Positions 5,084 to 23,573 of a DNA stretch of 64,000 nucleotides are shown here, in pieces (within the stretch, counting starts at the first letter, position 1; every line of letters starts with the position of its first letter). A model generated the notes under the pieces. It had not been told where the DNA came from and made no database searches. It was given only the letters and a program-made list of their open reading frames with translations. The DNA is from Actinomycetota bacterium (lineage in GTDB: Bacteria; Actinomycetota; Thermoleophilia; Miltoncostaeales; Miltoncostaeaceae), in the NCBI GenBank assembly GCA_963169235.1, contig CAUJCX010000039.1, positions 1 to 64,000 of the forward strand. Direction: 5' to 3'. Both the position numbers and the translations under genes were made by a program.

Positions 5084-7045
5084 ATGCGCTCCCGCACCCT
5101 CGTCCTCGCGCTCACCGCCGCGGCGGTGGCCGCCCCCGCGTCCGCCGACGTCTCCCAGCGCGCCCCGGACGGCTGGGGACCGTCCGTGGTCGTGGGCGAG
5201 CGGCTGCCCGCGTCCTACGAAACCCGTCCGCGCGCCGCGTTCGACACGACGGGTGCCGCCTCGGTGTTCTGGGACGGCGAGTCGAACCAGGGCGGCACCC
5301 ACCCGGCGGCGCGGACATGGTCGCCCGGTGCTGGGTGGGGTGGCCTCGTGAGAGCGCCGTACGGGGTCGGGGGAGAGGCGGGCTACCAGATGGCCGCCGA
5401 CGAAGCGGGAACCGTGCACCTGGCGTCGTTCTCGCGGTGGGGAAACCCCCTGGGGATGGGCTACAGCGAGCGTCCGGCAGGCGGGCAGTGGACGGGCCAG
5501 GAATTTCTCTCGACGTCGATGCCTGCGTACTGGACCCACGTGGGCCTTCTGGGGGTGCACCCATCCGGCGCGACGTGCCTCGAGTGGAACACGTCCGCGT
5601 CGGGGGGGCAGAACCCGGGGACGTCGCGTGTGGCCGAGCGTCCGGCGCGTGGTGAATGGTCGACGCCCGTGGTTGTCGCCGCACGCCCGTTCGAGGGGTT
5701 CGTCACGGCGGGACGGTCGGGCTGCCGAGACCGGGTGTGGCGGGATGGCACGACGCTCCGCGTGGCGCGTCGCGCAGCGGGCGGCGGCTGGACGACAGCC
5801 GACAGTCCCAGCACGCAGGACGTCGTCGCGCTGAGCGGCGCGTTTACCGATGCGGCCGACACCACGACCATGGCGTGGGTGGACGTCGAGGAGGGAAAGC
5901 GCGTGGTGCGCACGTCGCAACGCACAGGCACCGGTGCATGGCAGCCCGCGGTTCGGCACTCCTGGGGTGATGCGGACCCGGCGTCCGCGACCCTGGCGGT
6001 GTCCCCCGACGGCACGCGCGTGGTGGGTTGGCTGAGCGGCGAGCAGGCGATCGTGCGGGTCGCGGGGCCCGGAGGCCCGTGGGGAGACCCGCACGTGGTC
6101 AACCCGCCCGGTCAGCCGATCGAACGCAGGGCCACGACGATCAAGGTGGCGGCGGGGCCGGGCGGCACAGCGGCAGTGCAGTGGGTGGGGGAGTACACGG
6201 GCGGGCGTCTCTTCGCCGCCGTGCGCCTACCGGACGGCTCGTGGACCGGGTCGCACGACATGGGGGTCGACTCCAATTCGTACACCAGCGTCTTCGCGGT
6301 TGCGGTCGACGGCGAGGGTAACGCCGTCTCGGCGTGGGGTAGTGAGGGCGGGATGATGGCGCGCCTCTTCGACGCGGCCCCGCCCGTGCTCGGCGCGCTG
6401 AACGCTCCCGCCACCGCGACCACCGGCGCCGAGTGGCGGGCCGCGATCGCTGCGTCCGACCCGCAGACCGGCGTGGCCAGGATCGCGTGGGACTTCGGCG
6501 ACGGCGCCTTCGCCGAGGGCCCGGCGGTGGGCCACGCGTTCGCCCAGCCGGGTCCCCATACGGTCACGGTGACGGCGCGCGACGGCGCCGGCAACACCAC
6601 CCGCCGCACCATCGTGGTGGAGGCGGTGGCGCCTCCCGTGACGCCGACCCCCTCCGCCCCTGCGGCACCGACGACCCCCGCCAGCACGCCCACCGCGCCG
6701 ACCCCCTCCCGCACCGGCACGGTGGCGTCCACCGGCGAGCCCGGTCCCGCCGCGGTCGTGACGGTGCGGCCGCTCACGCCGTCCGTGCGGCTCACGCGGG
6801 TGAGCCTGGCGGGACGGGTGCTGCGCGTGACGGGCCGGGCGACCGCCCGGACGCCGGTGAACGTGCGCATCGCGTGCTCGGTGGGCAGGCCACGCGTCGT
6901 GAGCCGCCGGGCGATCGTGCCGCGCGGGCCGTTCACGCACGCGTTCCGCCTGCCGCGCTCGGCCGCACGGCCCGGCGTCTGCCGGGTGCGCGTCGCGGTG
7001 GGGGCGCGGGTGGTGCTCGCCCGCACGGTGATCGTGCGCCGCTGA
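5084..7045 (+). CDS. Secreted protein with PKD domain and basic C-terminal beta domain
   Basis: A 653-residue exported protein. A Sec signal peptide (MRSRTLVLALTAAAVAAPASA) covers about residues 1-21. Residues about 25-440 hold recurring Trp/Gly-rich strand motifs that look like a propeller-type or repeated beta fold, with no enzymatic motif I recognise. A PKD domain follows at about 445-520 (motifs WDFGDG and HAFAQPGPHTVTVTARDGAG). A Pro/Thr/Ala-rich linker comes next (about 522-565), then an Arg/Val-rich C-terminal domain. Similar C-terminal domains occur in other secreted proteins here (24410, 37402). It is probably surface-exposed or released; ligand unknown. It stands alone, between the antitoxin and the rhamnose locus. 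Confidence 0.8.
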   Translation: MRSRTLVLALTAAAVAAPASADVSQRAPDGWGPSVVVGERLPASYETRPRAAFDTTGAASVFWDGESNQGGTHPAARTWSPGAGWGGLVRAPYGVGGEAGYQMAADEAGTVHLASFSRWGNPLGMGYSERPAGGQWTGQEFLSTSMPAYWTHVGLLGVHPSGATCLEWNTSASGGQNPGTSRVAERPARGEWSTPVVVAARPFEGFVTAGRSGCRDRVWRDGTTLRVARRAAGGGWTTADSPSTQDVVALSGAFTDAADTTTMAWVDVEEGKRVVRTSQRTGTGAWQPAVRHSWGDADPASATLAVSPDGTRVVGWLSGEQAIVRVAGPGGPWGDPHVVNPPGQPIERRATTIKVAAGPGGTAAVQWVGEYTGGRLFAAVRLPDGSWTGSHDMGVDSNSYTSVFAVAVDGEGNAVSAWGSEGGMMARLFDAAPPVLGALNAPATATTGAEWRAAIAASDPQTGVARIAWDFGDGAFAEGPAVGHAFAQPGPHTVTVTARDGAGNTTRRTIVVEAVAPPVTPTPSAPAAPTTPASTPTAPTPSRTGTVASTGEPGPAAVVTVRPLTPSVRLTRVSLAGRVLRVTGRATARTPVNVRIACSVGRPRVVSRRAIVPRGPFTHAFRLPRSAARPGVCRVRVAVGARVVLARTVIVRR

Positions 7046-7491
7046 CGCGTCCCGCGCCGGGGGTCAGACGGCAGCGGGTCCTTCGGCCGCGCCCACCGCG
7101 CTCATATGAAAATCGCGAAAAATGGTGGATGCGTCCGTCGCCCAGGGCGCGCGCAACGGTCGTGGCGTACCTTCCGCCATCGCGGCGGCCCGGGCGCGTC
7201 TTCCTCAGCGCGCGTCCCGGGTCGCCGCGCGGGGTTCGTGGCCCACCGGCCGGCCGCGCCGAGGGGACGGTGCCGGCGATCGCATCCGCCGACCTGGACG
7301 CGTTGGGACGCATCCCCGCCCCGTGCCGTGTGATCCGTCCGGGGCGGCGGCCACTTCGTGCGGCTTGACACGTGCTCGGATGGTCTGTTGTGATCGCTTG
7401 CGTGCGGTCGCAACCCGTGCGCGGGTCACATCGCACACGTCATCACACCGGCGCACGCCGCCACGGGTGCGCCTGGCGCGGGAGGAACCCC
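7046..7491 (+). other. Intergenic region upstream of the rhamnose locus
   Basis: A 446-base gap. Reading frames that cross it look like shadows without good start contexts, so I call no gene here. It contains a short AT-rich patch (about 7102-7127) that is unusual for this GC-rich sequence. At its right end is the promoter/operator described separately, at 7365-7402, with an inverted repeat TTGCG (7398-7402) / CGCAA (7409-7413). Confidence 0.6.
7365..7402 (+). promoter_or_regulatory. Candidate promoter A with DeoR-type operator motif
   Basis: A TTGACA -35 box at 7365-7370 is followed after 18 bases by TGTGAT (7389-7394) as a plausible -10. The motif TGATCGCTTGCG (7391-7402) overlaps the -10. 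The same arrangement, TTGACACG followed by TGATCGTTTGCG, recurs at 8742-8778 before the DeoR gene. A repressor bound there would block the promoter of the solute-binding protein gene at 7492. Confidence 0.6.
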
Positions 7492-8712
7492 ATGGCCGTC
7501 GTGCGCTTTCTGGCCCCCGACACCGATCCGTTCGTCGCGTCCGTGCTCGCCCACGCGGACGAGTTCACCGAACGCACCGGCCTGACGCTCGAGCCGACGA
7601 TCCTGGCGAGCGACGAGTTCTTCGCCAACGCCATCCACACCCGCCTCGTGCGGCCCGGCGAGGTGGACGTGTTCATGTCGGGTCCTGTCCTTCTGTGGCA
7701 GCACGTGGGGGCCGGGCACGTGGCCTCCCTCGACGACCACGTCGCCGGCGCGAGCGCCGACTGGGCCGTCGACGACTTCTTCCCGGCGCTGCTCGACGCC
7801 AACCGGTGGTCGGGCCGGTTCGGCGACCCGCTGGGCAGCGGTCCCCTGCGCGAGATCCCCGTCAACTGCGAGTCGTACAACCTGGCGTACCTGCCCGCCG
7901 CGCTCGAGCGCGCCGGCGTGGACGTGCCCACCACGTGGGACGCGTACTTCGACGCGGCCGCCACGCTGGTCGGCGCGGGCGGCGTGCGGGGATGGGGGCA
8001 GCGCGGCATCGACGTGTGGCACACGATGTACACGGGCTACGCCACCCAGGTGTGGTCGTGCGGCGGCACCGACTTCGACGAGACGGGGCGCTCGGCGATC
8101 GCGTCCGGTGCGTGCGTCGACGCGACGCGGGCGTTCATCGACGCGCTGCGCGCGTCGGGTCCGTCCGACTGGCTGCACCAGCGCTGGTACGAGCTGGCGC
8201 TCGGCTTCGCCGCGGGCGAGTACGGCCTCCTGGTCGACTCCGACCACTACGCCCCCATCTTCGAGGGCGACGATTCGGCGATGGCGGGTCGCATCGGGTA
8301 CGCGATGCCCCCGTCGGGCCCCGCGGGATGCCGGCCCAACCTGTGGACGTGGTCGCTGGCGATGAACGCCAACTCGTCCGATCCCGCCGCCGCCTGGGCG
8401 TTCATCGAGTGGGCCAGCGGCCCCGACTTCCTCCTGCGCTCCGCGCTGGAGGGCAACCTCAACCCGACCCGGCGCAGCACGTGGGACGCGCCCGCGTTCC
8501 GCGACCGGGTGGCGGGCTGGGGCGACTACGCGGCCGTGTCGCGCGAGCTGCTCGAGCGCCACGCCCACGTGCTGGTGACGCCCCACCCCGACTACCTGAC
8601 GCTGGCCACGCGCTGGGTCCAGGCGCTGCGGGAGGCGTACGCGGGTGCCGACGTACACGACGCGCTGGCCCGTGCGGCCGCCGACATCGACCGCGCGACC
8701 GGTCGGGCCTGA
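7492..8712 (+). CDS. Family 1 solute-binding-like protein lacking a signal peptide
   Basis: A 406-residue protein with the overall pattern of a family 1 (sugar/UgpB-like) extracellular solute-binding protein: FLAPDTDPF at the start, a central CESYNLAYLP strand, a VPTTWDAYFDAAATL segment, and a late NANSSDPAAAWAFIEWASG segment typical of this fold. The ATG at 7492 has a strong GGAGGA site. The mature-like sequence starts at residue 3 with no signal peptide or lipobox, and the in-frame extension upstream does not supply one. No MalFG-type permease lies nearby; the adjacent importer is a different (CUT2) type. It sits under promoter A, so it is probably regulated with the rhamnose genes. Its role is unclear: a cytosolic sugar-binding protein, or a protein exported by another route. 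Confidence 0.75.
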   Translation: MAVVRFLAPDTDPFVASVLAHADEFTERTGLTLEPTILASDEFFANAIHTRLVRPGEVDVFMSGPVLLWQHVGAGHVASLDDHVAGASADWAVDDFFPALLDANRWSGRFGDPLGSGPLREIPVNCESYNLAYLPAALERAGVDVPTTWDAYFDAAATLVGAGGVRGWGQRGIDVWHTMYTGYATQVWSCGGTDFDETGRSAIASGACVDATRAFIDALRASGPSDWLHQRWYELALGFAAGEYGLLVDSDHYAPIFEGDDSAMAGRIGYAMPPSGPAGCRPNLWTWSLAMNANSSDPAAAWAFIEWASGPDFLLRSALEGNLNPTRRSTWDAPAFRDRVAGWGDYAAVSRELLERHAHVLVTPHPDYLTLATRWVQALREAYAGADVHDALARAAADIDRATGRA

Positions 8713-8741: not shown

Positions 8742-8778
8742 TTGACACGAACTCCGTGTGCGTGTTTGATCGTTTGCG
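8742..8778 (+). promoter_or_regulatory. Candidate promoter B with DeoR-type operator motif
   Basis: TTGACA (8742-8747), a 17-base spacer and TTTGAT (8765-8770) form a good promoter 35-40 bases before the deoR-like start. TGATCGTTTGCG (8767-8778) overlaps the -10 and nearly repeats the motif of promoter A. This suggests autoregulation of the repressor and control of the whole downstream rhamnose run. Confidence 0.65.
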
Positions 8779-8812: not shown

Positions 8813-9622
8813 ATGGCCGCACCACGACGCCTCCTCGCCGACGCCCGCAGGGCAAGCATCCTCACGATGCTGCGGGCGTCCGGGTCGGTCACCGTCGCGG
8901 AGATCGAGTCGGTGCTGGGCGTGTCGCCCATGACCGCCCGGCGCGACCTGGCCGAGCTCGAGCGGCGTGGCATCGCGCGGCGCAACCACGGCGGCGCGGT
9001 GCTGCCGCCGCTGGCCGCGCACGAAGACTCCTTCGCCTCCCGCCTAGAGGTTGCCACGGAGGCGAAGGAGGCCCTCGGGGCCGGCGGGGCGGCGATGGTG
9101 CACGACGGGCAGACGCTGTTCCTCGACTCGTCCACCACCGCGTGGTTCGTCGCCCGCGCGCTGCTCGAGCGCGGCGCGCGCGCCACCGTCATCACCAACT
9201 CGCTGCCCATCATGGACCTGGTCGCCGGGCACGCGGGGCTGGCCCTCGAGCTGGTGGCCGTCGGCGGGGCGCTGCGGCGCCTGACCCACTCGTTCGTGGG
9301 GCCGCAGGCCACCGACGCCATCGCGCGCCACGCCGCCGACCTGGCGTTCTTCAGCGTCAAGGGCGTCACCGGGGACGGCCAGATGACCGATCCCGACGCC
9401 CTCGAGGCCGACGTCAAGCGCGCGATGATCCGCAACGCCGACGAGACCGTGCTGCTGCTGGACGACTCCAAGCTGAGCGTGCACGGCCTGCACGTGGTCG
9501 ACCACGTGGCCGCCATCCGGCACGTGATGGTGCACGGCGCGGCCGCGTCCGACCTCAAGGGCCTGCGGGCCGCGGGGGCGCGGGTGCGCGACGCGGGCGT
9601 GCGGCTGGAGTCGGCGTCGTGA
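8813..9622 (+). CDS. DeoR-family transcriptional regulator of the rhamnose genes
   Basis: A 269-residue DeoR-family repressor. The N-terminal winged helix-turn-helix covers about residues 8-60 ([20 protein letters not shown], then a [17 protein letters not shown] recognition region). The C-terminal DeoRC sensor domain (about 75-250) has the family's [25 protein letters not shown] and VGPQATDAI segments and a DDSKL motif that usually binds a phosphosugar or polyol ligand. The ATG at 8813 was chosen because the helix-turn-helix begins just after it; upstream frame extension crosses promoter B. Its stop overlaps the ATPase start (GTGA). Likely ligand: a rhamnose-pathway intermediate such as rhamnulose phosphate (inference). 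Confidence 0.88.
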
Positions 9623-11142
9623 CCGAGGACGCGACCCTCACGGTGCCGATCCTCGAGCTCGACCACGCGGCCAAGTCGTACGGCGCGGTGCGGGCGCTGC
9701 GCGAGGGCACGCTGGCCCTGTGCGCCGGCGAGGTGCGGGCGCTGGTGGGCGAGAACGGCGCCGGCAAGTCGACGCTGGTGAAGCTGCTGGCCGGCGTGGA
9801 GCGGCTCGACGCGGGCGTCATGCGCGTCGACGGCGAGGACGTCGACTTCCACTCGCCGGCGGCCGCCCGCGCCGCGGGCATCGCGGTGATCTACCAGGAG
9901 CCCACGCTGTTCCCCGACCTGTCGGTGGCCGAGAACATCGCGATGGGGCGCCACCCGCTGCGCGCGGGACGGCGCATCGACCGGGGCGTGATGCGCCGCG
10001 ACGCGCAGGCCCTGCTCGACCAGCTGGGCGTGCGGCTCAACGCGTCCCGCCCGGTGCGCGGCCTGTCCATCGCCGACCAGCAGATCGTCGAGATCGCCAA
10101 GGCGCTCAGCTTCGAGGCGCGTGTGCTGATCATGGACGAGCCCACCGCCGCGCTGTCGGGGCCCGAGGTCGAGCGCCTGTTCACCGTGGTGCGCGCCCTG
10201 CAGCAGCGGGGCGCCGCCGTGCTGTTCATCTCGCACCGCCTGGAGGAGGTGTTCTCCATCTGCGACACGGCCACCGTGATGCGCGACGGCGCGGTGGTGC
10301 ACGACGCCCGCATCGCCGACATGACGCCCGACGACATGGTGCGCCGCATGGTGGGACGCGACCTCGGCGCGCTGTTCCCCAAGGAGGACACCACGGTGGG
10401 CGAGCCGGTGCTCGTCGCCCACCGGCTCACGCGCGAGAACGTCTTCACCGACATCAGCTTCACGCTGCACAGCGGCGAGATCGTGGCCCTGGCGGGCCTG
10501 GTGGGCGCCGGCCGCAGCGAGGTGGCGCGGGCCGTGTTCGGCATCGACCGCCTGGACGCCGGGCACGTGGAGGTCGAGGGGCGGCGCCTGCCCAACGGGC
10601 GCCCCGCGGCCGCGATGGCGGCGGGCATCGGCCTGGTGCCCGAGGATCGCCGCCAGCAGGGCCTGGTGATGGACCTGTCGATCACGCGCAACGTCACGCT
10701 CACCGTGCTGCGCCGGCTCAGCCGCCTGGGCCTCATGCGGCGGGGGTCCGAGCGCCGCGTGGCGGCCGAGTGGGCCGAGCGCCTGCAGCTGCGCCACCAC
10801 ACGCTGGACGGGCCGGTGCGGTTCCTGTCGGGCGGCAACCAGCAGAAGGTGGTGCTGGCCAAGTGGCTCGCCCGCACGCCGAAGGTGCTGATGGTCGACG
10901 AGCCCACCCGCGGCATCGACGTGGGCACCAAGGCCGAGGTGCACCGCCTGCTGTCGCGCCTGGCCGCCGAGGGCCTGGCCGTGCTGATGGTCTCGAGCGA
11001 GCTGCCCGAGGTGCTGGGCATGGCCGACCGCGTGCTGGTGATGCACGAGGGGCGGCTCACGGCCGAGCTGTCGCGCGACGAGGCCGACGAGGAGACCGTG
11101 ATGCGCGCGGCCACCGGGCAGACCCACGAGGCGGCCGCATGA
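9619..11142 (+). CDS. rhaT: Rhamnose-type CUT2 ABC importer ATPase (two-domain)
   Basis: A 507-residue sugar ABC ATPase with two fused nucleotide-binding domains. The first has Walker [10 protein letters not shown] (about residue 45), a divergent signature LSIADQQ and Walker [12 protein letters not shown]. The second lacks a standard P-loop (GLVGAGRSE) but has the [15 protein letters not shown] signature and [12 protein letters not shown]. This asymmetric layout is typical of CUT2 importers (Rbs, Xyl, Rha). The GTG start overlaps the deoR stop. It is followed directly by two permeases and a binding lipoprotein, then catabolic genes, so rhamnose is the likely substrate. The symbol follows the Rhizobium rhaSTPQ naming. 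Confidence 0.88.
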
Positions 11143-12176
11143 GCACCGACGCACCCCCCGTCCCCGGGCGCAAGGACCGCGGCGCCCGCCTGGCCGAGCT
11201 GGTGCTGCGCGTGCGCGAGCTGGGCATCGTCGGCGCGCTCGTGCTGCTGTTCGTGGTCACCGTGATCATGGAGCCGCGCTTCGCGGACGCCGACTCGCTG
11301 CGCGACCTGCTGCTGAACGCGTCCATCTTCGCCATCCTCGCGGTCGGCCAGACGCTGGTGATCGTGACCCGCAACATCGACCTGTCGGTCAGCTCGGTGC
11401 TGGCCCTGTCGGCGTACTTCGCCGGCAGCGTGGTGTCCGACCATCCCGGCGTGCCGGTGTGGGCCCTGTTCGTGATGGGCATCGGCATGGGCATGGCGTG
11501 CGGCCTGTTCAACGGCGTGCTGTCCACGTACGGCGGGGTGCCGTCGCTGGTGGTCACGCTGGGCACGCTGTACGCATTCCGCGGCCTGGCCTTCCTGTGG
11601 ACCGACGGCCGCCAGGTGAACGCCGAGACGCTGCCGGACGCGTTCCTCAACCTGGGCAGCGGCTCGGTGCTGGGCGTGCCCACGCTGTCCCTGTTCGCCA
11701 TCGCGGTCGTGCTGGTGGCGGGCTGGTGGATGCGCGACTTCCGCGCGGGACGGCAGCTGTACGCCATCGGCTCCAACCCCGAGGCCGCCCGGCTGGCCGG
11801 CGTCCGCTCGCAGCGGCTCGTGCTGCTGGCGTTCGTCGTGTGCGGAGCGCTGGCGGGGCTCGCGGGCGTGCTGTTCACCGCCCGCTTCGGCACCGTCGAC
11901 GCCACCGCGGGCGCGGGCTACGAGCTGACGGTCATCGCCGCGGCCGTGGTGGGCGGCGTGGCCATCTTCGGCGGCGTCGGCACCGTGTATGGCGCGGCCC
12001 TCGGCGCGCTGCTCCTGACCACCATCACGTCGTCGCTCATCATCCTCAAGGTCTCGGCGTTCTGGCAGCAGGCGGCCATCGGCGCGCTGCTCATCCTCGC
12101 CATCGTGCTCGACCGCGTCGTCGGTGTGCGCCTCGAGTCCGCCCTGCGGCAAAGGAGCGCCCGCCGTGTCGCGTAA
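11139..12176 (+). CDS. rhaP: Rhamnose-type ABC importer permease 1
   Basis: A 345-residue CUT2-family permease with about eight to ten membrane segments. Family signatures are visible: [18 protein letters not shown], an [19 protein letters not shown] loop, an [13 protein letters not shown] cytoplasmic coupling motif, and [22 protein letters not shown] near the end. The ATG overlaps the ATPase stop (ATGA). It pairs with the next gene to form a heterodimeric channel, as in the rhizobial rhamnose importer, which has two permeases. Confidence 0.87.
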
Positions 12177-13269
12177 TTCCCTCGCCCCCGGCGCGGACAC
12201 CGCGCCCGCGCCCGACGGCGGTTCCGGCGCCGGCCGCGGCCCGCTGGCACGCCTGGCGTCCGCCGCGGGGCGGTGGGAGTTCCTCATCCTGCTGCTGATC
12301 ATCGCGACGTGCGTGGCCGGTCAGGCCATCTCGCCGCAGTTCCTCAGCCGGGCCTCGTTCATGACCGGGTCGCTCGACTTCACCGAGGTCGCGCTGATGG
12401 CCCTGCCGCTGACGCTCATCATCATCACGGCCGAGATCGACCTGTCGGTGGCGTCCGTGCTGGCCCTGTCGAGCGCGCTGATGGCGTGGCTGTGGATGCA
12501 CGACGTGCCGATGGTGCCCACCGTGCTCCTGTGCCTGGTCGCGGGGGCCCTGTGCGGGCTGTTCAACGGCCTCCTGGTGACCAAGGGGGGGCTGCCGTCG
12601 CTGGCCGTCACCATCGGCACCCTGGCCCTGTTCCGGGGCCTCGCGTACGTGGTCATCGGCGACCAGTCGGTGACCGACTTCCCCACGGCGTGGACCGACT
12701 GGGGCTTCGGCATGGTCGGCACGTCCATCCTGCCCAACACCATCGCCGTGTTCGCGGTGCTGGCGGTCATCTTCGCCGTGCTGCTGCACGGCAGCCGCTT
12801 CGGGCGGTCCATCTACGCCATCGGCGCCAACCAGGAGGCCGCGTACTTCTCGGGCATCAAGGTCAAGCGCATCAAGCTCATCCTGTTCGTGATCTCCGGC
12901 GTCGTCTCGGCGCTCGCCGGCGTCATCATCTCGCTGCGCAACTCCACCGCGGCGGCCAACGTCGGTCAGGGCTTCGAGCTGACCGCCATCGCCGCCGTCG
13001 TGCTGGGCGGCGTGTCCATCTTCGGTGGCCGGGGCACGGTGGGCGGCGTCGTCCTCGCCCTGTTTCTCCTCGCCGCCATCCAAAAGGCTCTCTCCCTGAG
13101 TGAGTCCATCTCGACGGCCTGGATCCAGGTCGTCACCGGCGCCCTGCTGATCGGCTCGGTGCTCGGCCCCAACCTGGTCTCGCGGATGAACGAGGCCCGG
13201 GCGCGCGCCCGCATGCGCGGCGACGCCCAGGCCCGTCCGCCGACCACTTCCCAGGAGGAAGCAGTATGA
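12166..13269 (+). CDS. rhaQ: Rhamnose-type ABC importer permease 2
   Basis: A 367-residue CUT2 permease, paralogous to its upstream neighbour. Signatures are IITAEIDLSVASVLALSSA, NGLLVTKGGLPSLAVTIGT, IGANQEAAYFSGI and VLGGVSIFGGRGTVGGVVLAL. The start is GTG 12166, spaced from an AAAGGAG ribosome binding site and overlapping the previous stop by 11 bases. The tail is basic and disordered. The stop overlaps the next ATG by four bases. Confidence 0.87.
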   Translation: MSRNSLAPGADTAPAPDGGSGAGRGPLARLASAAGRWEFLILLLIIATCVAGQAISPQFLSRASFMTGSLDFTEVALMALPLTLIIITAEIDLSVASVLALSSALMAWLWMHDVPMVPTVLLCLVAGALCGLFNGLLVTKGGLPSLAVTIGTLALFRGLAYVVIGDQSVTDFPTAWTDWGFGMVGTSILPNTIAVFAVLAVIFAVLLHGSRFGRSIYAIGANQEAAYFSGIKVKRIKLILFVISGVVSALAGVIISLRNSTAAANVGQGFELTAIAAVVLGGVSIFGGRGTVGGVVLALFLLAAIQKALSLSESISTAWIQVVTGALLIGSVLGPNLVSRMNEARARARMRGDAQARPPTTSQEEAV

Positions 13270-14327
13270 ACACGTCGCGCATCACCCGCGCGCTGGTGGC
13301 CTCGGCGGCCGCGGCCTGCCTCGTCGGCGCCGTCGCCGCTTGCCAGGACAGCTCGTCCGATTCGTCCTCCACCACCGCCAAGACGGGCGGGGGAGGCGAG
13401 ATCCCCAAGGGGCTGAAGACGGTGTCGATGCCCAAGCAGCTCGGCAACCCGTACGAGGAGCTCGAGCACAGCGGCGTCACCGAGGCCATGGAGGAACTCG
13501 GCGGCACCAACCGCGTCGTCGGCCCCACCGACGCGGGCGCGTCGTCGCAGGTGCCGCTCATCAACTCGGTGACCCAGCAGAAGCCCGACGCGTTCATCAT
13601 CGCCGGCAACGACCCCAACGCCGTGGCCCCCGCGCTGAAGGCGATGGCGAAGGCCGGCGTCAAGGTGGTGGCGATGGACTCCGACGTCGCCCCCGACGCA
13701 CGCACCGTGTTCATCAACCAGGCCAACACGCAGGGCGTGGGCGAGGACCAGATCAAGCTGGTCTGCGAGCTCGTGCCGAAGTGCACCGGTGAGATCGCCA
13801 TCTTGAGCGCCACGGCCAACGCGCCCAACCAGAACGCGTGGATCAAGGTGATGAAGGAGGTCCTCAAGCAGGACGCCTACAAGGGCCTCAAGCTGGTGAA
13901 GGTGGCGTACGGCGACGACGACGACCAGAAGTCGTTCCAGGAGATGCAGGGCCTCGTGAAGGCCTATCCCAACCTGAAGGGCGTCATCGCGCCCACCACG
14001 GTGGGCATCTCGGCCGGCGCGCGCTACCTCTCGACCTCGCCGTTCAAGGGCAAGATCGTGATGACCGGCCTGGGCACCCCCAACCAGATGCGCAAGTTCG
14101 TCAAGGACGGCACCGTCACGGCGTTCCAGCTGTGGAACCCCAAGGACGTGGGCTACCTGGCCGGGTTCGCCGCCGCCAACCTCGTGGCCGGCAACATCAC
14201 GGGCAAGGAGGGCGAGACGTTCGAGGCCGGCAAGCTGGGCGAGCGCACCATCGGCAAGGACGGCGAGATCCTGCTCGGCCCGCTCCAGCGGTTCGACAAG
14301 GCCAACATCGACGACTTCGACTTCTGA
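13266..14327 (+). CDS. rhaS: Rhamnose ABC importer substrate-binding lipoprotein
   Basis: A 353-residue periplasmic-binding-like lipoprotein of the RbsB/RhaS fold. The signal peptide ends in the lipobox VAAC with the lipidated cysteine at residue 26, followed by a Ser/Thr-rich tether. The mature domain starts near residue 50 (KTVSMPKQLGNPYEELE) and contains the sugar-binding segments IIAGNDPNAVAPALKAMAKAG, VVAMDSDVAPDARTVFINQ and GLGTPNQMRKFVKDGTV. A GAGGAAGCAGT site precedes the ATG. It would capture the sugar at the cell surface for the permeases just upstream. Confidence 0.88.
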   Translation: MNTSRITRALVASAAAACLVGAVAACQDSSSDSSSTTAKTGGGGEIPKGLKTVSMPKQLGNPYEELEHSGVTEAMEELGGTNRVVGPTDAGASSQVPLINSVTQQKPDAFIIAGNDPNAVAPALKAMAKAGVKVVAMDSDVAPDARTVFINQANTQGVGEDQIKLVCELVPKCTGEIAILSATANAPNQNAWIKVMKEVLKQDAYKGLKLVKVAYGDDDDQKSFQEMQGLVKAYPNLKGVIAPTTVGISAGARYLSTSPFKGKIVMTGLGTPNQMRKFVKDGTVTAFQLWNPKDVGYLAGFAAANLVAGNITGKEGETFEAGKLGERTIGKDGEILLGPLQRFDKANIDDFDF

Positions 14328-14336
14328 GTCGTCGGC

Positions 14337-15809
14337 GTGACCGACTCCGTCTCCATGGATCGCGTTGACGGAAACACCCGGCCCGCGCCTCGCGCGCGGG
14401 TCGGCGTGTTCGGCATCGGACTGCGTGCCTACTGGGACCAGTTCGACGGCCTCCTCGACCGCATGCACCGCTACCAGGGCCGCGTTGAGGAGCGCGTCCG
14501 CGAGCTGGGCGCCGACGTGGTGTCGGCGGGCCTGGTGGACACCGCGGAGGGCGCGCGCGAGGCGGGCGACCTGTTCGCCCGCGAGCGCGTCGACCTGGTG
14601 CTGTGCCACGCGGTCACGTACGCCACGTCCAGCCAGGTGCTGCCCGTTGCGCAGGCGGCGCGCGTGCCCGTGGTGCTGCTGGGCCTCCAGCCCACCGCGT
14701 CCATCGACTACCCGAACATCGACACCGGGGAGTGGCTCGCGAACTGCGCCGCGTGCTGCGTGCCCGAGATCGCCGGCGCGTTCACCCGGGCCGGCATCCC
14801 GTACGACACCGTCGCCGGCACCATCGACGACGACCCGCGGGCGTGGCACAAGATCGGCTCGTGGGTGCGTGCCGCCGGCGTCGCGCACGCCCTCGGCCGC
14901 GCTCGCATCGGGTTCCTGGGCCACACGTACCCCGGCATGCTCGACATGTACTCCGACTTCACCGCCGTGCATGCGCAGCTGGGCGCGCACGTGGAGGTGC
15001 TCGAGATCGACGACCTCGGCGTGCGCGTGGCCGCCGCGGGTGACGACGACGTGCGCGCCAAGATCGACGAGATCCGCGGCATGTTCGACATCGCCGACCC
15101 GTCCGACGACCCCATCGCCGGGCCGATGGACGACGACGCGATGCAGTGGTCCGCACGCGTGGCCGTGGGCCTCGACCACCTGGTGCGCGACTTCGCGCTG
15201 GACGGCCTCACGTACTACTACCGGGGCCTCGACGGCAACGAGGCCGAGCGCCTCGGCGCCGGCGTGATCGTCGGCAACTCGCTGCTCACCGCGCGGGGCG
15301 TGCCGACGGCGGGGGAGGGCGACCTCAAGACCAACATCGCCCAGCTGATCCTCGACCGGCTCGGCGCGGGCGGCTCGTACACCGAGTACTACGCGCTCGA
15401 CTTCGACGAGGGGTTCATCCTCATGGGCCACGACGGCCCCGGCCACATCACCATCGCCGAGGGACGTCCCACGCTGAGGGCGCTGCGGATGTACCACGGC
15501 AAGCGCGGCGCCGGCCTGTCGGTGGAGTTCCGCGTGCGCACCGGCCCCATCACCATCGTGGGGTGCACCCAGACGCGCGAGGGCCGCCTGAAGCTGATCG
15601 TGGCCGAGGGCGAGGCGATCCCGGGCCCCACCATGCGCATCGGCAACACCAACTCGCGCCTGCGGTTCGCGTCGCCGCCGGCGGACTTCTTCGAGCGCTG
15701 GTGCGCCGAGGGCCCCACGCACCACGTGGCGCTGGGCGTCGGCCACGTCGCCGACGACGTCGCCCGCGTGGCCGCGCTGACCGGCCTCGACGTCGCCCGG
15801 GTGGGCTGA
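14337..15809 (+). CDS. L-arabinose/L-fucose isomerase-family sugar isomerase
   Basis: A 490-residue ketol isomerase of the AraA/FucI fold. The four residues expected to bind the catalytic Mn ion in AraA have clear counterparts: E327 in TAGEGDLKTN, E350 in SYTEYYALDFDEGF, H365 in ILMGHDGPGH, and a histidine at 462/463 in GPTHHVALG. The GTG at 14337 is used; an ATG at 14355 is an alternative. A separate rhamnose isomerase of a different fold (17585) is in the same run, so this enzyme is an extra isomerase. It may act on L-fucose, L-arabinose or a related 6-deoxysugar, letting the shared kinase and aldolase process more than one sugar. Its substrate cannot be read from sequence alone. Confidence 0.82.
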   Translation: MTDSVSMDRVDGNTRPAPRARVGVFGIGLRAYWDQFDGLLDRMHRYQGRVEERVRELGADVVSAGLVDTAEGAREAGDLFARERVDLVLCHAVTYATSSQVLPVAQAARVPVVLLGLQPTASIDYPNIDTGEWLANCAACCVPEIAGAFTRAGIPYDTVAGTIDDDPRAWHKIGSWVRAAGVAHALGRARIGFLGHTYPGMLDMYSDFTAVHAQLGAHVEVLEIDDLGVRVAAAGDDDVRAKIDEIRGMFDIADPSDDPIAGPMDDDAMQWSARVAVGLDHLVRDFALDGLTYYYRGLDGNEAERLGAGVIVGNSLLTARGVPTAGEGDLKTNIAQLILDRLGAGGSYTEYYALDFDEGFILMGHDGPGHITIAEGRPTLRALRMYHGKRGAGLSVEFRVRTGPITIVGCTQTREGRLKLIVAEGEAIPGPTMRIGNTNSRLRFASPPADFFERWCAEGPTHHVALGVGHVADDVARVAALTGLDVARVG

Positions 15810-16129
15810 TGGAGCGGGTGTGCTTCCTCCTGCGCGTGCGTCCCGACCGGCTGGACGAGTACCGCGCGCACCACCGCGCCGTCTGGACCGAGATGACGGA
15901 CGCGCTGACGGCCACCGGCTGGCGCAACTACAGCCTGTTCCTGGCCGACGACGGCCTGCTGGTGGGCTACCTCGAGACCGACGATTTCGCGGCGTCCCTG
16001 GCCGGCATGGAGGACACCGACGTCAACGCCCGCTGGCAGGCGCTCATGGCGCCGTTCTTCGCGCTGCCCGACGGCGAGCGGCCCGACACGGGCCTCGTGC
16101 GCCTCGACGAGATCTTCCACCTTGCGTGA
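15809..16129 (+). CDS. rhaM: L-rhamnose mutarotase
   Basis: A 106-residue dimeric ferredoxin-like-fold enzyme that interconverts the alpha and beta anomers of L-rhamnose. Conserved features are FLLRVRPDRLDEYRAHH near the start (catalytic histidine region), a W..NYSLFL strand near residue 40 and the C-terminal LDEIFHL. The ATG overlaps the previous stop by one base. The kinase start lies inside its last codons. Confidence 0.9.
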   Translation: MERVCFLLRVRPDRLDEYRAHHRAVWTEMTDALTATGWRNYSLFLADDGLLVGYLETDDFAASLAGMEDTDVNARWQALMAPFFALPDGERPDTGLVRLDEIFHLA

Positions 16130-17588
16130 CGCGAAGCGATACGTCGCGGTCGACCTGGGCGCGTCGAGCGGCCGAGTGCTGGTGGCGACGTTCGACGGCG
16201 GACGGGTGGAGCTGGACGAGGTACACCGCTTCGTCAACGAGCCAGTGCGGCTTCCCGACGGGTTGCGCTGGAACCTGCTGGGCCTGTTCGCCGAGGTGGC
16301 GCGGGGCGTGCGCGACGCGTGCGCGGCCGGTCCGGTGGTGAGCGCCGGCGTCGACGCGTGGGGCGTCGACTACGCCCTGGTGGACGACGAGGCCCGCCCC
16401 CTGGGCCTGCCGTTCCACTACCGCGATGCGCGCACCGACGGCATGCCGGAGCGGGCGTTCGCGCGGGTGCCGCGCGACGAGCTGTACCGCGTCACGGGCA
16501 TCCAGACGATGCCCATCAACACGGTCTTCCAGCTGCTGGCCGACGACCCGCGCGCGCTGGATCGTGCCGCCGGCATCCTGCTGGTGCCCGGCCTCGTCTC
16601 CCACTGGCTGGGCGGGCGTCCCGCCAACGACGACACGGCGGCGTCCACCACGGGCCTGCTCGACGCGGCCACCGGCGACTGGGCCCGCGGCGTCATCGCC
16701 CGCCTGGGCCTCCCGGCCGCGCCGTTCGGCCCGCTGGTGGCTCCGGGCACCGCGCTGGGGACGCTGCGGAGCGACATCGCAGGCGGCGCGACCGGGGTCG
16801 ACGTGGTGGCGGTGGCCGGACACGACACCGCGGCCGCGTTCGCCGCGGCGCTGGGCGACGACGACACCGCGGTGCTGTCGAGCGGCACCTGGTCGCTCGT
16901 GGGCATCGAATCGCCCCGGCCCGTGCTGAGCGATGCGGCCCTGGCGGCCAACCTCACCAACGAGCGGGGCGTGGGCGGCACGGTGCGCCTGCTCAAGAAC
17001 GTGATGGGCCTGTGGCTGCTGCAGGAGTGCGAGCGGGAGTGGGGGCTCGGCACCGCGCAGCTGCTGGCCGAGGCCGAGGCGGCGGACGATGCACCGCTGT
17101 TCGACCCCGACGACCCCACGCTGCTGGCGCCGGGCGGCATGCCCGCGCGCATCCACCGGCTGATGGGCGCGTCGCCCGATCGGGGCGCCACGGTGCGCGG
17201 CATCCTCACGTCGCTGGCCTGCAAGTACCGCTGGGTGCTGGAGGACATCGAGGCCGTGTCCGGCCGCCGCATCCGTCGCATCGACGTGGTCGGCGGCGGG
17301 GCGGGCAACGCGCTGCTGGCCCGCATCACCGCCGACGTCACCGGGCGCACCGTGCTGGCGGGGCCGCGCGAGGCGACGGCCCTGGGCAACGCGCTGGTGC
17401 AGGTGGGCGCCCACGCGGGGCTCGACCGCAGCGCCCTGCGCGACGTCGCGCGGGTCTCCGCCGAACGCGTGCCGTTCCGCCCGGCCGACGGGCCCGCCGG
17501 CGACGCCCTGTACGCCCGCTTCCTCGACACCACTGGGCTGCGCCACGCGGGCGCGCCACCGACGCCAACGGGAGGACGAACCGCATGA
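16122..17588 (+). CDS. rhaB: Rhamnulokinase
   Basis: A 488-residue FGGY-family sugar kinase that phosphorylates L-rhamnulose to rhamnulose 1-phosphate. It shows the [12 protein letters not shown] phosphate-binding loop at the N-terminus, the [13 protein letters not shown] and HYRDARTDG substrate segments (both typical of RhaB), the [11 protein letters not shown] adenosine loop and a [11 protein letters not shown] motif in the second domain. The only start that keeps the first strand is a TTG at 16122 overlapping the rhaM stop, an uncommon but usable start. The gene is coupled to rhaI by an ATGA overlap. Confidence 0.92.
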
Positions 17589-18781
17589 GCAACGACCACG
17601 CGCACCTGCGCAGCGCGCTGGAGGCCGCCGGCGTCGACGTGGCCGACGTCGAGCGCCGCCTCGGCGGCCTCGAGGTGGAGACCCCGTCGTGGGGCTACGG
17701 GGCGGCCGGCACCCGGTTCGCCGTGTTCCCCGGTCCCGGCACCGCCCGCGACATCTGGGAGAAGGTCGACGACGCCGCCGAGGTGCACCGCCTCACCGGC
17801 ACCGCGCCCGCCGTGGCCATGCACTTCCCCTGGGACGCCGTGCCCGACTACGACGCGCTGCGCGCGTACGTCACCGAGCGCGGGCTGCGGGTGGGGGCCG
17901 TCAACCCCAACCTGTTCCAGGACCCGGACTACCGGCTGGGCTCGGTGTGCAACCCCGACGCCCGCGTGCGCGACAAGGCCGTGGCCCACCTGGTGGAGTG
18001 CATCGAGATCGCCACCGCGCTGGGCTCCACCGCCCAGTCGCTGTGGTTCGCCGACGGCACCAACTACGCCGGTCAGGACGACCTGCGCGCGCGGCGTCAT
18101 CGGCTGCGCGAGTCGCTCGAGCGCGCATACGCCGTGCTGCCCGACGCGCAGGAGATGCTGGTCGAGTACAAGTTCTTCGAGCCGGCGTTCTACTCCACCG
18201 ACCTGCCCGACTGGGGCACGGCCCTGCTCACCTGCCTGGCGCTGGGCGACCGCGCCCGCGTGCTGGTCGACCTGGGCCACCACGCCCAGGGCGTCAACGT
18301 CGAGCAGATCGTCGCGCTCCTGGCCGACGAGGGCCGCCTGGGCGGGTTCCACTTCAACAACCGCAAGTACGCCGACGACGACCTCGTGGTGGGCTCCGTC
18401 AACCCGTTCGAGCTGTTCCTGATCTTCTGCGAACTCGCCGACGGGGACCTGCCGCGACTGACCATCGACCAGGCGCACTGCATCGAGCCGACCGTGGAGG
18501 CCATGGTGCTCAGCGTGACCAACATCCAGGAGGCGTACGCCAAGGCGCTGATCGTCGACCGGGATGCGCTGGCGACCGCCCGCGCCGACGGCGACGTGCT
18601 GGGGGCCCACCGCGTGATGCTGGACGCGTTCGGCACCGACGTGAGGCCCCTGTGCGCGCACGTCCGCACGGCGCGGGGGGCCGCCGCCGATCCGCTGTCC
18701 CAGCTGCGGTCCTCCGGCTACGTCGCGCGCAACGCCGAGGCCCGCGCCGAGGGCGCGGCGACCGGGCTGGGCGCCCGATGA
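17585..18781 (+). CDS. rhaI: L-rhamnose isomerase (non-RhaA, RhaI type)
   Basis: A 398-residue TIM-barrel sugar isomerase of the RhaI family found in rhizobia, Bacillus and actinobacteria, distinct from E. coli RhaA. Signatures are [15 protein letters not shown] near the N-terminus, [21 protein letters not shown], the metal-binding [23 protein letters not shown] and [12 protein letters not shown] segments. It converts L-rhamnose to L-rhamnulose. The ATG overlaps the rhaB stop (ATGA), and its stop overlaps the aldolase start the same way. Confidence 0.9.
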
Positions 18782-20859
18782 GCCCCGCAGACGGCGTGAT
18801 GATCGCCCCCGTGGACGACCGCTGGGACGCGTCCGCGGGTGAGGGCGACGCGCTCGACCAGGTGCTGGCCGCGTCGCGCCTCCTGGGCTCCGACCGGTCG
18901 CTGGCCAACTTCGGCGGCGGCAACACGTCGGCGAAGGGCACGGCCACCGACCACGCGGGCCGCGACGTGCGGGTGATGTGGGTGAAGGGCTCGGGCAGCG
19001 ACCTGGCCACCATGGAGCGGCGCCACTTCACGGGGCTGCGGCTCGACGAGATCCTCCCGCTGATCGAGCGGCACGAGATGAGCGACGAGGAGATGGTGGC
19101 GTACCTGGCGCGCTGCCAGCTGGACCCCACCATGCCGCGGTGCTCCATCGAGACGCTCTTGCACGCGTTCGTGCCCGCCGAGCACGTGCACCACACCCAC
19201 CCCGACGGCATCAACGTGCTGGCGGGCACGCGCGACGGCGAGGCGCTGGTGCGGGAGTGCTTCGGCGACCGCGCCGCGTGGAGCCCGTACATCCGCCCCG
19301 GTTTCACGCTGGCCCGTCAGGTGGGGCTGGCGGTGCGCGAGAACCCGGCCCTCGAGGCCGTGATCCTGGCCAAGCACGGGCTGGTGGTGTGGGGCGACAC
19401 GGCGCAGGAGGCGTACCGGCGCACCGTCGCGATCGTCAACGAGGCGATCGCGTTCACCAACGCCCGGGTGGGGGGCGCGGCCCGCTTCGGCGGACCTGCC
19501 GGAACGCCGCTTTCCGACGACCAGGCCGCGGAGCTCCTGGCCGACGTGCTGCCCGCGCTGCGCGGGGCGGTGTCGAGCGAGCGCGCGAAGGTGCTGGTGG
19601 TCGACCGCGCGCCGGCCGTCGTCGAGTTCGTGTCGTCGCGTGACGCGCCCGAGCTGGTGGGGGTGGGGGCGCCGTGTCCCGACCACCTGGTGCACACCAA
19701 GCGGGTGCCCCTGTGGGTGCCGTTCGACCCCGCCCGCGACGACGCCGCGGCGCTGGCCGAGCGCATCCGCGAGCTGGTGCCCGCCTACCGCGACGAGTAC
19801 CGCGCGTACGTGGCGCTTCACGCGGACGCCGACACGGTGCCCGCCGATCCCGACCCGCGCGTGGTGCTGATCCAGAACGTCGGCCTGGTGGGCGTCGGCA
19901 CGTCGCCCCGCGCGGCCGCGCTGTCGCGCGACCTCTACCACCGCGCGGTGGAGGTGATCGCCGGCGCCGACGCCATGGGCGGCTTCGTGTCGCTCACCGA
20001 CGCCGAGAGCTTCGCCATCGAGTACTGGCCGCTGGAGCTGTACAAGCTGTCGCTGGCGCCCCCGCCGGGGGAGCTCCAGGGCACCGTCGCCCTGGTCACC
20101 GGCGGCGCCGGCGGCATCGGGCGGGCCACCATGGCCGCGATGGCGGGCATGGGGGCGTGCGTCGTGGGCCTCGACCTCGACGCGGACGGGGCGCGGGAGG
20201 CGGTCGCGGCGTATGGCGACGCGGGGCTCGGCCTGGCGTGCGACGTCACGTCCGAGGACGCCGTCCGGGACGCGTACCGGCAGGCCGTCGCGCGCTTCGG
20301 CGGGGTCGACATCGTGGTGTCGAACGCCGGCGTCGCGTCGAGCGCCCCGCTCCAGGAGACCACCCTCGACGAGTGGCAGCGCAACTACGCCGTGCTGGGC
20401 ACCGGCTACTTCCTGGTGGCGCGCGAGGCGTTCCGCACCATGATCGCGCAGGCCACCGGGGGCAGCATCGTGTTCGTCGCGTCGAAGAACGCGGTGGTGG
20501 CGGGCCGCAACGCGGCGGCGTACTCGTCGGCGAAGGCGGCCGAGCTGCACCTGGCCCGCTGCCTGGCCGAGGAGGGGGGCCCGCACGGCATCCGGGTCAA
20601 CACGGTGAACCCCGACGCGGTGCTGCAGGGATCGCGCATCTGGGGCTCGTCGTGGCGGCGTGAGCGCGCCGACGCGTACGGCATCGAGCCGGACCAGCTG
20701 GAGGAGCACTACCGCAAGCGCACCACGCTGGGCGTCAACATCCTGCCGGACGACATCGCCCAGGCCGTGGTGCACTTCGCGTCCCCGGCCCGCTCCGGCA
20801 AGAGCACCGGCAACATGCTGAACGTCGACGGGGGGGTCCCGGCGGCGTACGCCCGCTAG
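18778..20859 (+). CDS. rhaD: Bifunctional rhamnulose-1-phosphate aldolase / lactaldehyde dehydrogenase
   Basis: A 693-residue fusion. Residues about 1-430 form a class II aldolase/adducin-type domain with zinc-binding histidines in HVHHTHPDG and an AKHGLVVWG segment. It would split rhamnulose 1-phosphate into DHAP and L-lactaldehyde. Residues about 440-693 form a short-chain dehydrogenase with the TGGAGGIG nucleotide loop, an SNAGVASS segment and a [12 protein letters not shown] active-site Tyr/Lys region. In related fusions (RhaEW, YuxG type) this half oxidises lactaldehyde to lactate. Fusing the two steps would keep the reactive aldehyde from escaping. It is followed immediately by lutABC. 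Confidence 0.92.
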
Positions 20860-21587
20860 TGCGCGTCTCGCTGATGATCACGTGCCTGGCCGACACGCTG
20901 TTTCCGCGTGCCGGTCAGGCGACGGTGACGGTGCTGGAGCACCTGGGCTGCGACGTCGTGTTCCCGGCCGAGCAGACCTGCTGCGGCCAGATGCACGGCA
21001 ACACCGGCTACCGCGACGACGGGCTGGGCCTGGCGCGGCGCGCGTGCCGGGTGTTCGCCGACGCCGAGCGCGTCGTGTGCCCGTCGGCGTCGTGCGTGGG
21101 CTGGCTGCGGGAGACCGCCCCCATGCTGGCCGCCGCCGCCGGCGACGACGCCCTGGTGGCCGAGCTGCGCGGCCTGGCGCCGCGCATGCGGGAGCTGACC
21201 GAGCTGATCATCGACGACCTGGGCGTCGAGGACGTGGGGGCGTCGTTCCCCCACACGGTCACGTACCACCCCACGTGCCACAGCCTGCGCGGCCTGCACC
21301 TGGGCGAGCGGCCCGTGCGCCTGCTGCGCGCCGTCCGCGGCCTGCAGCTGGTGCCGCTGCCGTCGGCCGAGGAGTGCTGCGGCTTCGGCGGCACGTTCGC
21401 GCTGAAGAACGCCGACGTCTCGATGGCGATGCTGGCCGACAAGGTGCGCTGCGTGGGCGACTCGGGCGCCGAGGTGGCCACCGCCGTCGACGGGTCGTGC
21501 CTGATGCAGATCGGCGGGGCGCTGTCGCGGCAGCGCACGGGCGTGCGCACCATGCACCTGGCAGAGATCCTGGCGGCGCGGGAATGA
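20859..21587 (+). CDS. lutA: Lactate utilisation protein LutA (CCG Fe-S protein)
   Basis: A 242-residue protein of the LutA/YkgE family with two cysteine-rich CCG modules: QTCCGQMHGN near residue 40 and AEECCGFGG near residue 170, plus conserved single cysteines in TYHPTCHS and DGSCLMQIGG. It forms part of the LutABC complex that oxidises L-lactate to pyruvate. The GTG start shares its first base with the TAG stop of the rhamnose aldolase gene, so it is very likely cotranscribed. This placement gives the lactate formed from rhamnose an immediate outlet. Confidence 0.92.
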   Translation: MRVSLMITCLADTLFPRAGQATVTVLEHLGCDVVFPAEQTCCGQMHGNTGYRDDGLGLARRACRVFADAERVVCPSASCVGWLRETAPMLAAAAGDDALVAELRGLAPRMRELTELIIDDLGVEDVGASFPHTVTYHPTCHSLRGLHLGERPVRLLRAVRGLQLVPLPSAEECCGFGGTFALKNADVSMAMLADKVRCVGDSGAEVATAVDGSCLMQIGGALSRQRTGVRTMHLAEILAARE

Positions 21588-22957: not shown

Positions 22958-23573
22958 CGTGCTCGCCCGGGTGCGCCGGGCCCTCGGCCCGTCGCCGTCG
23001 GCGCCGGAGGTGCCCCGCGGCTACCACCAGGCCGGGGCGTCCCGCGACGGCGACGCGGTGGCCCGCTTCTGCGAGCGGGCCGCCGAGTACACGGCCACGG
23101 TCACCCGCTGCGGCGACGACGCGCTGGCGGCCGTGCTGGGCGCCCGCGCGCGGGCCCACGGCGTCACGCGGCTGGCGTGCCCCGCCGCGACGGCGTGGGC
23201 CGTTGACGGCGCCGAGACCGTGCCCGACGACCCGCCGCTCGACCCGCGCACGCTGGACTCCATCGGGGCCGTGGTGACCGGTTCGGCCCTCGCGATCGCC
23301 GACACCGGCACGGTGGTGCTGGACGGCGGGCCCGCATCGGGACGGCGGGCGCTGTCGCTGGTGCCCGACGTGCACCTGTGCGTGGTGCGCGCCGCGACGG
23401 TGGTGTGGTCGGTCCCCGACGCGATCGCGGCGCTGGCGGCCGACGGCGCCCGCGGCCGGCCCGTCACGTTCATCAGCGGCCCGTCGGCCACGTCCGACAT
23501 CGAGCTGCAGCGCGTGGAGGGCGTGCACGGCCCACGGACGCTCGAGATCGTGGTCGTCGACGAGGCCCCGTAG
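22941..23573 (+). CDS. lutC: Lactate utilisation protein LutC
   Basis: A 210-residue protein of the LutC/YkgG (DUF162) family, the third component of lactate oxidation. Typical segments are SIGAVVTGSALAIADTGTVVLDGG and ISGPSATSDIELQRVEGVHGP, the latter being the strongest family hallmark. The GTG start overlaps the end of lutB by 17 bases. It is the last gene of the rhamnose-lactate run and is followed two bases later by a strong hairpin. Confidence 0.92.
   Translation: MSARDDVLARVRRALGPSPSAPEVPRGYHQAGASRDGDAVARFCERAAEYTATVTRCGDDALAAVLGARARAHGVTRLACPAATAWAVDGAETVPDDPPLDPRTLDSIGAVVTGSALAIADTGTVVLDGGPASGRRALSLVPDVHLCVVRAATVVWSVPDAIAALAADGARGRPVTFISGPSATSDIELQRVEGVHGPRTLEIVVVDEAP

Follow-up and report, generated by a model that had tools for sequence, protein, structure and literature searches.

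RESULTS

A solute-binding protein gene heads a rhamnose cluster

The window analyzed here comprises the first 64,000 nucleotides of contig CAUJCX010000039.1 (assembly GCA_963169235.1), which belongs to an actinomycetote of the family Miltoncostaeaceae. On its forward strand, the gene of a solute-binding protein (ORF 7492-8712) is followed by a DeoR-family regulator gene, rhamnose transport and rhamnose utilization genes, and genes for L-lactate oxidation (Table 1). The CUT2 importer that the initial annotation had placed behind the binding-protein gene is present there as an ATPase, two permeases, and RhaS (9616 to 14327).

Table 1 Features of the rhamnose locus and the evidence for their assignment
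Feature	Position	Strand	Basis
PKD-domain protein, signal-like N terminus by eye; between rluD and the rhamnose cluster	5084-7045		
Promoter/operator-like element of the binding-protein gene	7365-7402	+	Pattern search; rank 1 (38.5 bits)
Ribosome-binding site GGAGGA	7481-7486	+	Sequence
CUT1/MalE-type solute-binding protein without signal peptide or lipobox, 406 aa, no lysine	7492-8712	+	Pfam, structure, relatives, composition
Matching promoter/operator-like element of the DeoR gene	8742-8778	+	Rank 2 (21.0 bits); similar element in five relatives
DeoR-family regulator of the rhamnose cluster	8813-9622	+	Pfam DeoRC, 2.7e-37; 50-56% identical matches heading five rhamnose loci
CUT2 importer ATPase	9616-11142	+	Pfam, NCBIfam, related loci
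CUT2 permease 1 (BPD_transp_2)	11139-12176	+	Pfam
CUT2 permease 2 (BPD_transp_2; approximate start)	12202-13269	+	Pfam
RhaS rhamnose-binding lipoprotein, exported binding protein of the local importer	13266-14327	+	NCBIfam TIGR02637 above cutoff; lipobox; K/(K+R) 0.80
Arabinose/fucose-isomerase-like protein (approximate start)	14337-15809	+	Pfam
RhaM-like L-rhamnose mutarotase	15809-16129	+	PF05336, 5.7e-28
Rhamnulokinase-like FGGY kinase (approximate start)	16122-17588	+	Pfam, NCBIfam
RhaI-like L-rhamnose isomerase	17585-18781	+	TIGR02635, 530.7 bits (cutoff 531.35)
Bifunctional rhamnulose-1-phosphate aldolase/dehydrogenase (approximate start)	18778-20859	+	TIGR02632 above cutoff
LutABC-like L-lactate oxidation genes	20859-23573	+	Profile matches

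Five genomes of the same class carry the genes for DeoR, the CUT2 ATPase, two permeases, RhaS, mutarotase, kinase, RhaI, and aldolase-dehydrogenase in the same order. LutABC lies upstream of deoR in the five related clusters, whereas it is found downstream of the rhamnose genes in the window. No match to the binding protein above 60 bits was obtained in the five most similar rhamnose stretches or in six further RhaS loci (41 to 50% RhaS identity). An isomerase-like gene of the 14337-15809 type, the second such gene beside RhaI, is present in the related stretches L141, L142, and L144, while L140 and L143 gave no match above 60 bits. A second common motif, approximately CGCAATCGCACACAAA, precedes lutA in L142 and L143 (weaker in L140 and L144; judged by eye) and is perhaps another operator.

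The genes rluD, rpsB, and tsf stand side by side in three genomes of the same family. The window has the end of rluD at 4484 and the first rpsB homology near 25434, and the approximately 21 kb between them (4485 to 25433) hold the PKD protein, the binding-protein gene, the rhamnose cluster, and LutABC. Because rluD and rpsB are otherwise adjacent, and because a genome of the same genus had neither RhaS nor the binding-protein gene at the thresholds used, this block probably represents an island for sugar use that was acquired between housekeeping genes.

The protein has a complete CUT1-type fold

The ATG start of ORF 7492-8712 has a GGAGG sequence six bases 5′ of it, and the frame of 406 codons is intact, with a base composition of the coding type. 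The product was assigned to the Pfam family SBP_bac_1 with an E value of 4e-29 (103 bits compared to a cutoff of 26) and matched SBP_bac_8 as a second family; NCBIfam models gave no match at E 0.01. An AlphaFold2 model calculated from a 23-sequence alignment reached a pLDDT of 93.0 and a pTM of 0.90, and residues 3 to 9 form its first strand. Foldseek and VIA-align returned whole-length matches of the model to sugar-binding proteins of ABC importers. Among the matches listed, PDB entries scored Z values of 39 to 46 at a TM of about 0.8 (5iai, 45.8; 6dtq [MalE3], 44.0; 1eu8, 43.1; 4rya [sorbitol], 42.0), and the sequence identity to these four entries was 19 to 22%. Residue 1 of the model aligns near the start of the solved chains (e.g., residue 3 of 6j9w). 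Together with the whole-length matches, this position indicates that the mature fold is complete and that nothing lies ahead of it.

By family (SBP_bac_1) and by its two-lobe fold, the protein is a CUT1 binding protein. It shares this fold over 406 residues with the extracellular members of the group (PF01547; TmMalE3 6dtq, sorbitol-binding 4rya, and 5iai; Z, 42 to 46), and several of their invariant Trp and Arg residues are also present. Unlike these proteins, it has no signal, lipobox, FDWK-like linker, lysine, or recognized MalFG partner. Fold and family together make it fairly probable that the protein binds a sugar. The initial annotation had proposed a family 1 solute-binding protein with a mature fold from residue 3, no signal or lipobox, and a strong GGAGGA site. 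The Pfam score far above the cutoff and the whole-length fold matches, the strand at residues 3 to 9 and the negative upstream frame (see below), and the ribosome-binding site before the ATG agree with these three proposals.

The upstream DNA resembles a promoter and encodes no recognized export signal

Whether the protein is exported was assessed with simple rules and by homology: a hydrophobic, uncharged stretch following a basic residue was sought before the aligned start. The comparison set consisted of 80 listed relatives of 462 confirmed in a scan of genome contigs; the 80 are 26 to 39% identical to the binding protein. The in-frame sequence upstream of ORF 7492-8712 is closed by a TGA (7366-7368) inside the −35 hexamer, and no signal was detected by the rule used in the 41 codons between this TGA and the ATG. 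The only ATG, GTG, or TTG codons in this frame are GTGs at 7372, 7390, 7402, and 7417. Those at 7372 and 7390 fall between or within the −35 and expected −10 boxes, where the DNA corresponds to the pre-deoR promoter region of five related genomes. When read in frame, the promoter DNA from 7372 to 7401 yields MLGWSVVIAC, whose resemblance to a lipobox is fortuitous but could deceive automated start prediction. A start at GTG 7372 with the lipobox-like VIAC was rejected, as it is located in the promoter between the −35 and the expected −10 box and lacks an n-region. The rule also flagged residues 14 to 22 (FVASVLAHA), which were rejected as a signal since they constitute helix 1 of the predicted fold; the mature part of one relative was flagged by this crude rule as well (2 of 23 in all).

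A signal-like segment was present in all 77 relatives with a readable N terminus among the 80 listed of 462, and 75 of these 77 were positive for a loose FDWK-like linker pattern, which is absent from all three frames of the query. MalF and MalG were both found nearby in 76 of the 80. Since every evaluable relative has the signal-like segment and nearly all have both permeases, the absence of a signal appears to be particular to ORF 7492-8712 among the relatives seen and does not look like a family trait. Orthologues with a signal peptide had been named as a finding that would point to a mis-called start. Such relatives do exist (77 of 77 evaluable, of 80 listed); however, the conclusion of a mis-called start does not follow, because the upstream DNA is a conserved promoter and the protein does not have the lysine-rich make-up of the lipoproteins sampled from this genome. 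As the in-frame upstream DNA is promoter, a start or frame error is unlikely to account for the missing signal, and the protein is predicted to carry neither a Sec/Tat signal nor a lipobox.

The amino acid composition was compared with that of 340 kb (340,041 bases) of the organism's own genome, the window included, in which ORF classes were derived from mechanical ORF choice and not from annotation. The binding protein contains 0 Lys and 28 Arg in 406 residues. All eight ORFs classed as lipoproteins in the sample displayed K/(K+R) values of 0.40 to 0.91; they include RhaS of the cluster and the binding protein of the CUT1-like importer. Lipoproteins of this high-GC genome are lysine rich and arginine poor in the sample (8 of 8). 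The median was 0.13 for 83 other ORFs classed as cytoplasmic and 0.11 for 19 ORFs with a hydrophobic N terminus and no lipobox. Low lysine therefore sets the binding protein apart from lipoproteins but not from every exported protein. Taken alone, the absence of lysine is a weak distinguishing feature, given a lysine content of 0.3% or less in 8 of the 83 other cytoplasmic-classed ORFs; 4 of the 83 have no lysine after residue 60. Free cysteines were discarded as a cytoplasmic mark, as four are also found in three relatives. The lysine-free make-up may reflect long cytoplasmic residence.

The protein is divergent and has no close ortholog among the matches listed

The closest relative among the 80 listed of 462 is 39% identical, and a closer one may exist beyond them. 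The searches of genome sets, which overlap, returned one match (31%) in 41 other genomes of the same family, two weak matches in 199 relatives, three matches in 399 genomes of the class, and nine in 396 genomes of the phylum (best, 36 to 37%). Nothing was found in the viral contigs scanned, and plasmid matches (424 records) were all below 60%. Six plasmid records were inspected by eye, and all six showed a signal-like N-terminal segment; in the five with a gene table, the binding protein adjoins at least one permease. Among the matches listed, no close ortholog was found in the same-family, class, and phylum genomes.

Overall identity to 22 aligned relatives was 26 to 39%, and of the 43 alignment positions with at least 90% conservation among the other 22 sequences, the protein retains 33. 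This share (0.77) is the lowest of the 23 sequences (next, L056 with 0.78). In the tree, the branch of the binding protein is the longest (1.59) and has no supported sister. Among the near-invariant residues lost is the H in the KHP loop that follows strand 1. The KHP loop contacts the ligand in MalE-like proteins, and its altered sequence means that the ligand specificity may have changed.

No free CUT1 permease pair was recognized among the inspected matches

The four relatives without both permease genes comprise two whose stretches end within 1.2 kb, one with MalF only, and one with neither. The genome under study (2.94 Mb in 65 contigs, 96% complete) yielded four matches to SBP_bac_1 and 17 to BPD_transp_1. 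The window's contig carries no BPD_transp_1 match, consistent with the initial annotation that no matching MalFG-type permease is near. Eleven of the 17 were inspected in context (the regions around nine were fetched, and two are in L161). A CUT1-like importer pair with its own lipoprotein and ATPase is located at C47:165536-166974. By eye, the pair on contig C20 resembles a phosphate importer, contig C8 carries two matches fused as a pair, with a binding protein of their own next to them, as well as a dipeptide-type pair, and contig C45 has a single permease adjoining its own binding protein. The two matches in L161 adjoin a lipoprotein. The remaining six, considered by coordinates only, are distributed over five contigs, and the only neighboring pair among them falls within a single open frame. 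A free CUT1 permease pair was thus not recognized among the 11 of 17 matches inspected in this 96%-complete genome, and a cognate MalF/MalG set, nearby or free elsewhere, is not apparent among them. A remote partner pair had been put forward as a case against an intracellular protein; the one CUT1-like pair recognized among the inspected matches comes with its own lipoprotein.

The binding-protein gene and deoR share a predicted operator

The element upstream of ORF 7492-8712 consists of a −35 box (TTGACA, 7365-7370) and imperfect 10-bp direct repeats, GGTCTGTTGT (7382-7391) and GATCGCTTGC (7392-7401). The pattern TTGACACG-NN-CTC, which was written from this site and the one before deoR, occurs in the window only at these two places (0.15 matches expected). 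Upstream of deoR, the five relatives display CTTGAC followed by GATCG 26 to 27 bases on. A profile built only from these five deoR promoters was used to scan both strands of the 340,041 own bases and ranked the 7365 site first (38.5 bits) and the 8742 site second (21.0), followed by a site with 6.5 bits, in line with the shared promoter motif that the initial annotation had described. The profile is not fully independent, since the window motif was already known when the short pattern used to select the relatives' sites was composed; this pattern has one match per relative's stretch, each directly before deoR, and the columns outside the pattern agree too. Each of the two window sites can be interpreted as a pair of imperfect 10-bp direct repeats. 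DeoR-type RhaR sites have been described as two imperfect direct repeats with a period of 10 to 11 bp in PMC3870299, and the operator layout is alike here. On the strength of this predicted operator, the binding-protein gene is a putative member of a DeoR-type rhamnose regulon. The relatives' deoR promoter has a closer counterpart in the 7365 site than in the local deoR promoter. From this we suggest that the 7365 site represents the ancestral promoter of the operon and that insertion of the binding-protein gene separated it from deoR.

DISCUSSION

The most likely reading, to which we assign a probability of about one half, is that ORF 7492-8712 encodes an orphan CUT1-type binding protein that resides in the cytoplasm as a ligand-binding helper of the rhamnose pathway. 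Its complete fold, the absence of a signal and of a recognized free permease pair, the deoR-like operator, and its absence from related rhamnose stretches support this reading. That the protein is both cytoplasmic and functional is likely. The proposal of an intracellular protein under rhamnose control thus probably holds, with the missing signal, the lack of a recognized partner permease, and the shared promoter motif as its basis. In such a scenario, a CUT1-type binding protein would have lost its export signal and permeases and would now fold and work in the cytoplasm under the rhamnose repressor. The DeoR protein would repress its gene along with the transporter and enzyme genes, and rhamnose or a rhamnose product would induce them. 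Inside the cell, the protein could bind a sugar by the usual two-lobe closing motion and act as a ligand-dependent helper that buffers or senses rhamnose entering the cell, a rhamnoside, or an intermediate of the pathway, perhaps through contact with the regulator or an enzyme. Such a sensing or buffering role is plausible, though tentative, and rhamnose or one of its phosphates is a candidate ligand at most. It is rather improbable that an importer receptor moved intact into the cytoplasm to become a free-standing sugar sensor or a co-effector of the DeoR-type repressor; if so, the rhamnose genes would be tuned by a stand-alone two-lobe receptor and not by the regulator's own effector domain alone.

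The main rival is that the gene is a relic, captured without signal and permeases behind a copy of the rhamnose promoter and drifting since, perhaps expressed yet idle. The longest tree branch and the lowest share of near-invariant residues also fit relaxed selection, and the failure to find a close ortholog among the matches listed and the absence from five related rhamnose stretches point in the same direction. We nevertheless consider a relic unlikely: the ribosome-binding site is good, the operator-like site is well kept, the predicted fold is complete and confident, and 33 of 43 near-invariant residues have been retained despite the low overall identity. The intact, coding-type frame adds to this, although an open frame alone is weak evidence in GC-rich DNA. 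The long branch and the changed conserved residues might instead mean that the fold is no longer a binder but has become an enzyme or a structural subunit in rhamnose degradation. Binding-protein folds have become enzymes elsewhere, as in yeast Thi5. This conversion is improbable here, however, as five related clusters with the same pathway genes do without the protein and no catalytic signature came up in the family matches.

Two further explanations would put the protein outside the cell. The signal-like segments of all 77 evaluable relatives (of 80 listed), together with the in-frame GTG 7372 that would add MLGWSVVIAC and its lipobox-like end, could indicate that a mis-called start, a frameshift, or an assembly error conceals a real signal peptide. 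This is very improbable: the added stretch matches promoter DNA upstream of deoR in five relatives, precedes the expected transcript start, lacks a positive n-region, and would be separated from the fold by about 30 R/H-rich residues. Moreover, none of the three frames contains an FDWK-like linker, and a recent error alone would not explain the lysine-free composition. Non-classical export, after which the protein would serve the local CUT2 importer or remote CUT1 permeases, is suggested by the adjoining importer genes and by the normal action of binding proteins outside the cell. We see hardly any chance for it, since the local importer is equipped with RhaS, a binding protein from a different family that carries a lipobox, and the sole CUT1-like pair recognized among the 11 of 17 matches inspected has its own lipoprotein. 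In addition, the protein has neither an anchor nor the lysine-rich make-up of the sampled lipoproteins, and the near-invariant residues H12, E40, Y71, and T87, which might face a permease, are replaced by D, S, H, and A.

The locus resembles the DeoR-type RhaR rhamnose regulons described in PMC3870299, in which DeoR regulator, importer, and rhamnose enzymes occur together. What sets it apart from the regulons presented there is the additional CUT1-type binding protein without a signal at the head of the cluster; neither “signal peptide” nor “substrate-binding” appears in the main text of that paper. Solute-binding folds that act inside cells in sugar responses are known from SgrR and DsvR, which a preprint (PMC13060122) describes as cytoplasmic regulators that combine an HTH with an SBP_bac_5 solute-binding domain at the C terminus. 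An intracellular position in a sugar-response setting is proposed likewise for the ORF 7492-8712 protein. Compared to SgrR and DsvR as portrayed there, it belongs to another SBP family and has no DNA-binding domain, so a regulatory role would need a partner. It is not an SgrR-like fusion, because no HTH family was matched in Pfam and the binding-protein fold fills the protein from residue 3. No description of a free-standing CUT1 binding protein that lacks a signal and belongs to a sugar regulon was found in the open-licence literature searched; the relevant passages of PMC5812351, PMC12827396, and PMC3415414 treat other subjects.

Solute-binding domains are already used in some cytoplasmic regulators. 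If our reading is true, the protein would represent an intermediate step toward such cytoplasmic use, namely, an intact stand-alone importer receptor that has lost export and transporter and has a clear regulon. It would also serve as a warning that the annotation “extracellular solute-binding protein” can misstate the location of a protein. For this genome, comparing a lysine-free make-up with the lysine-rich lipoproteins offers a simple check.
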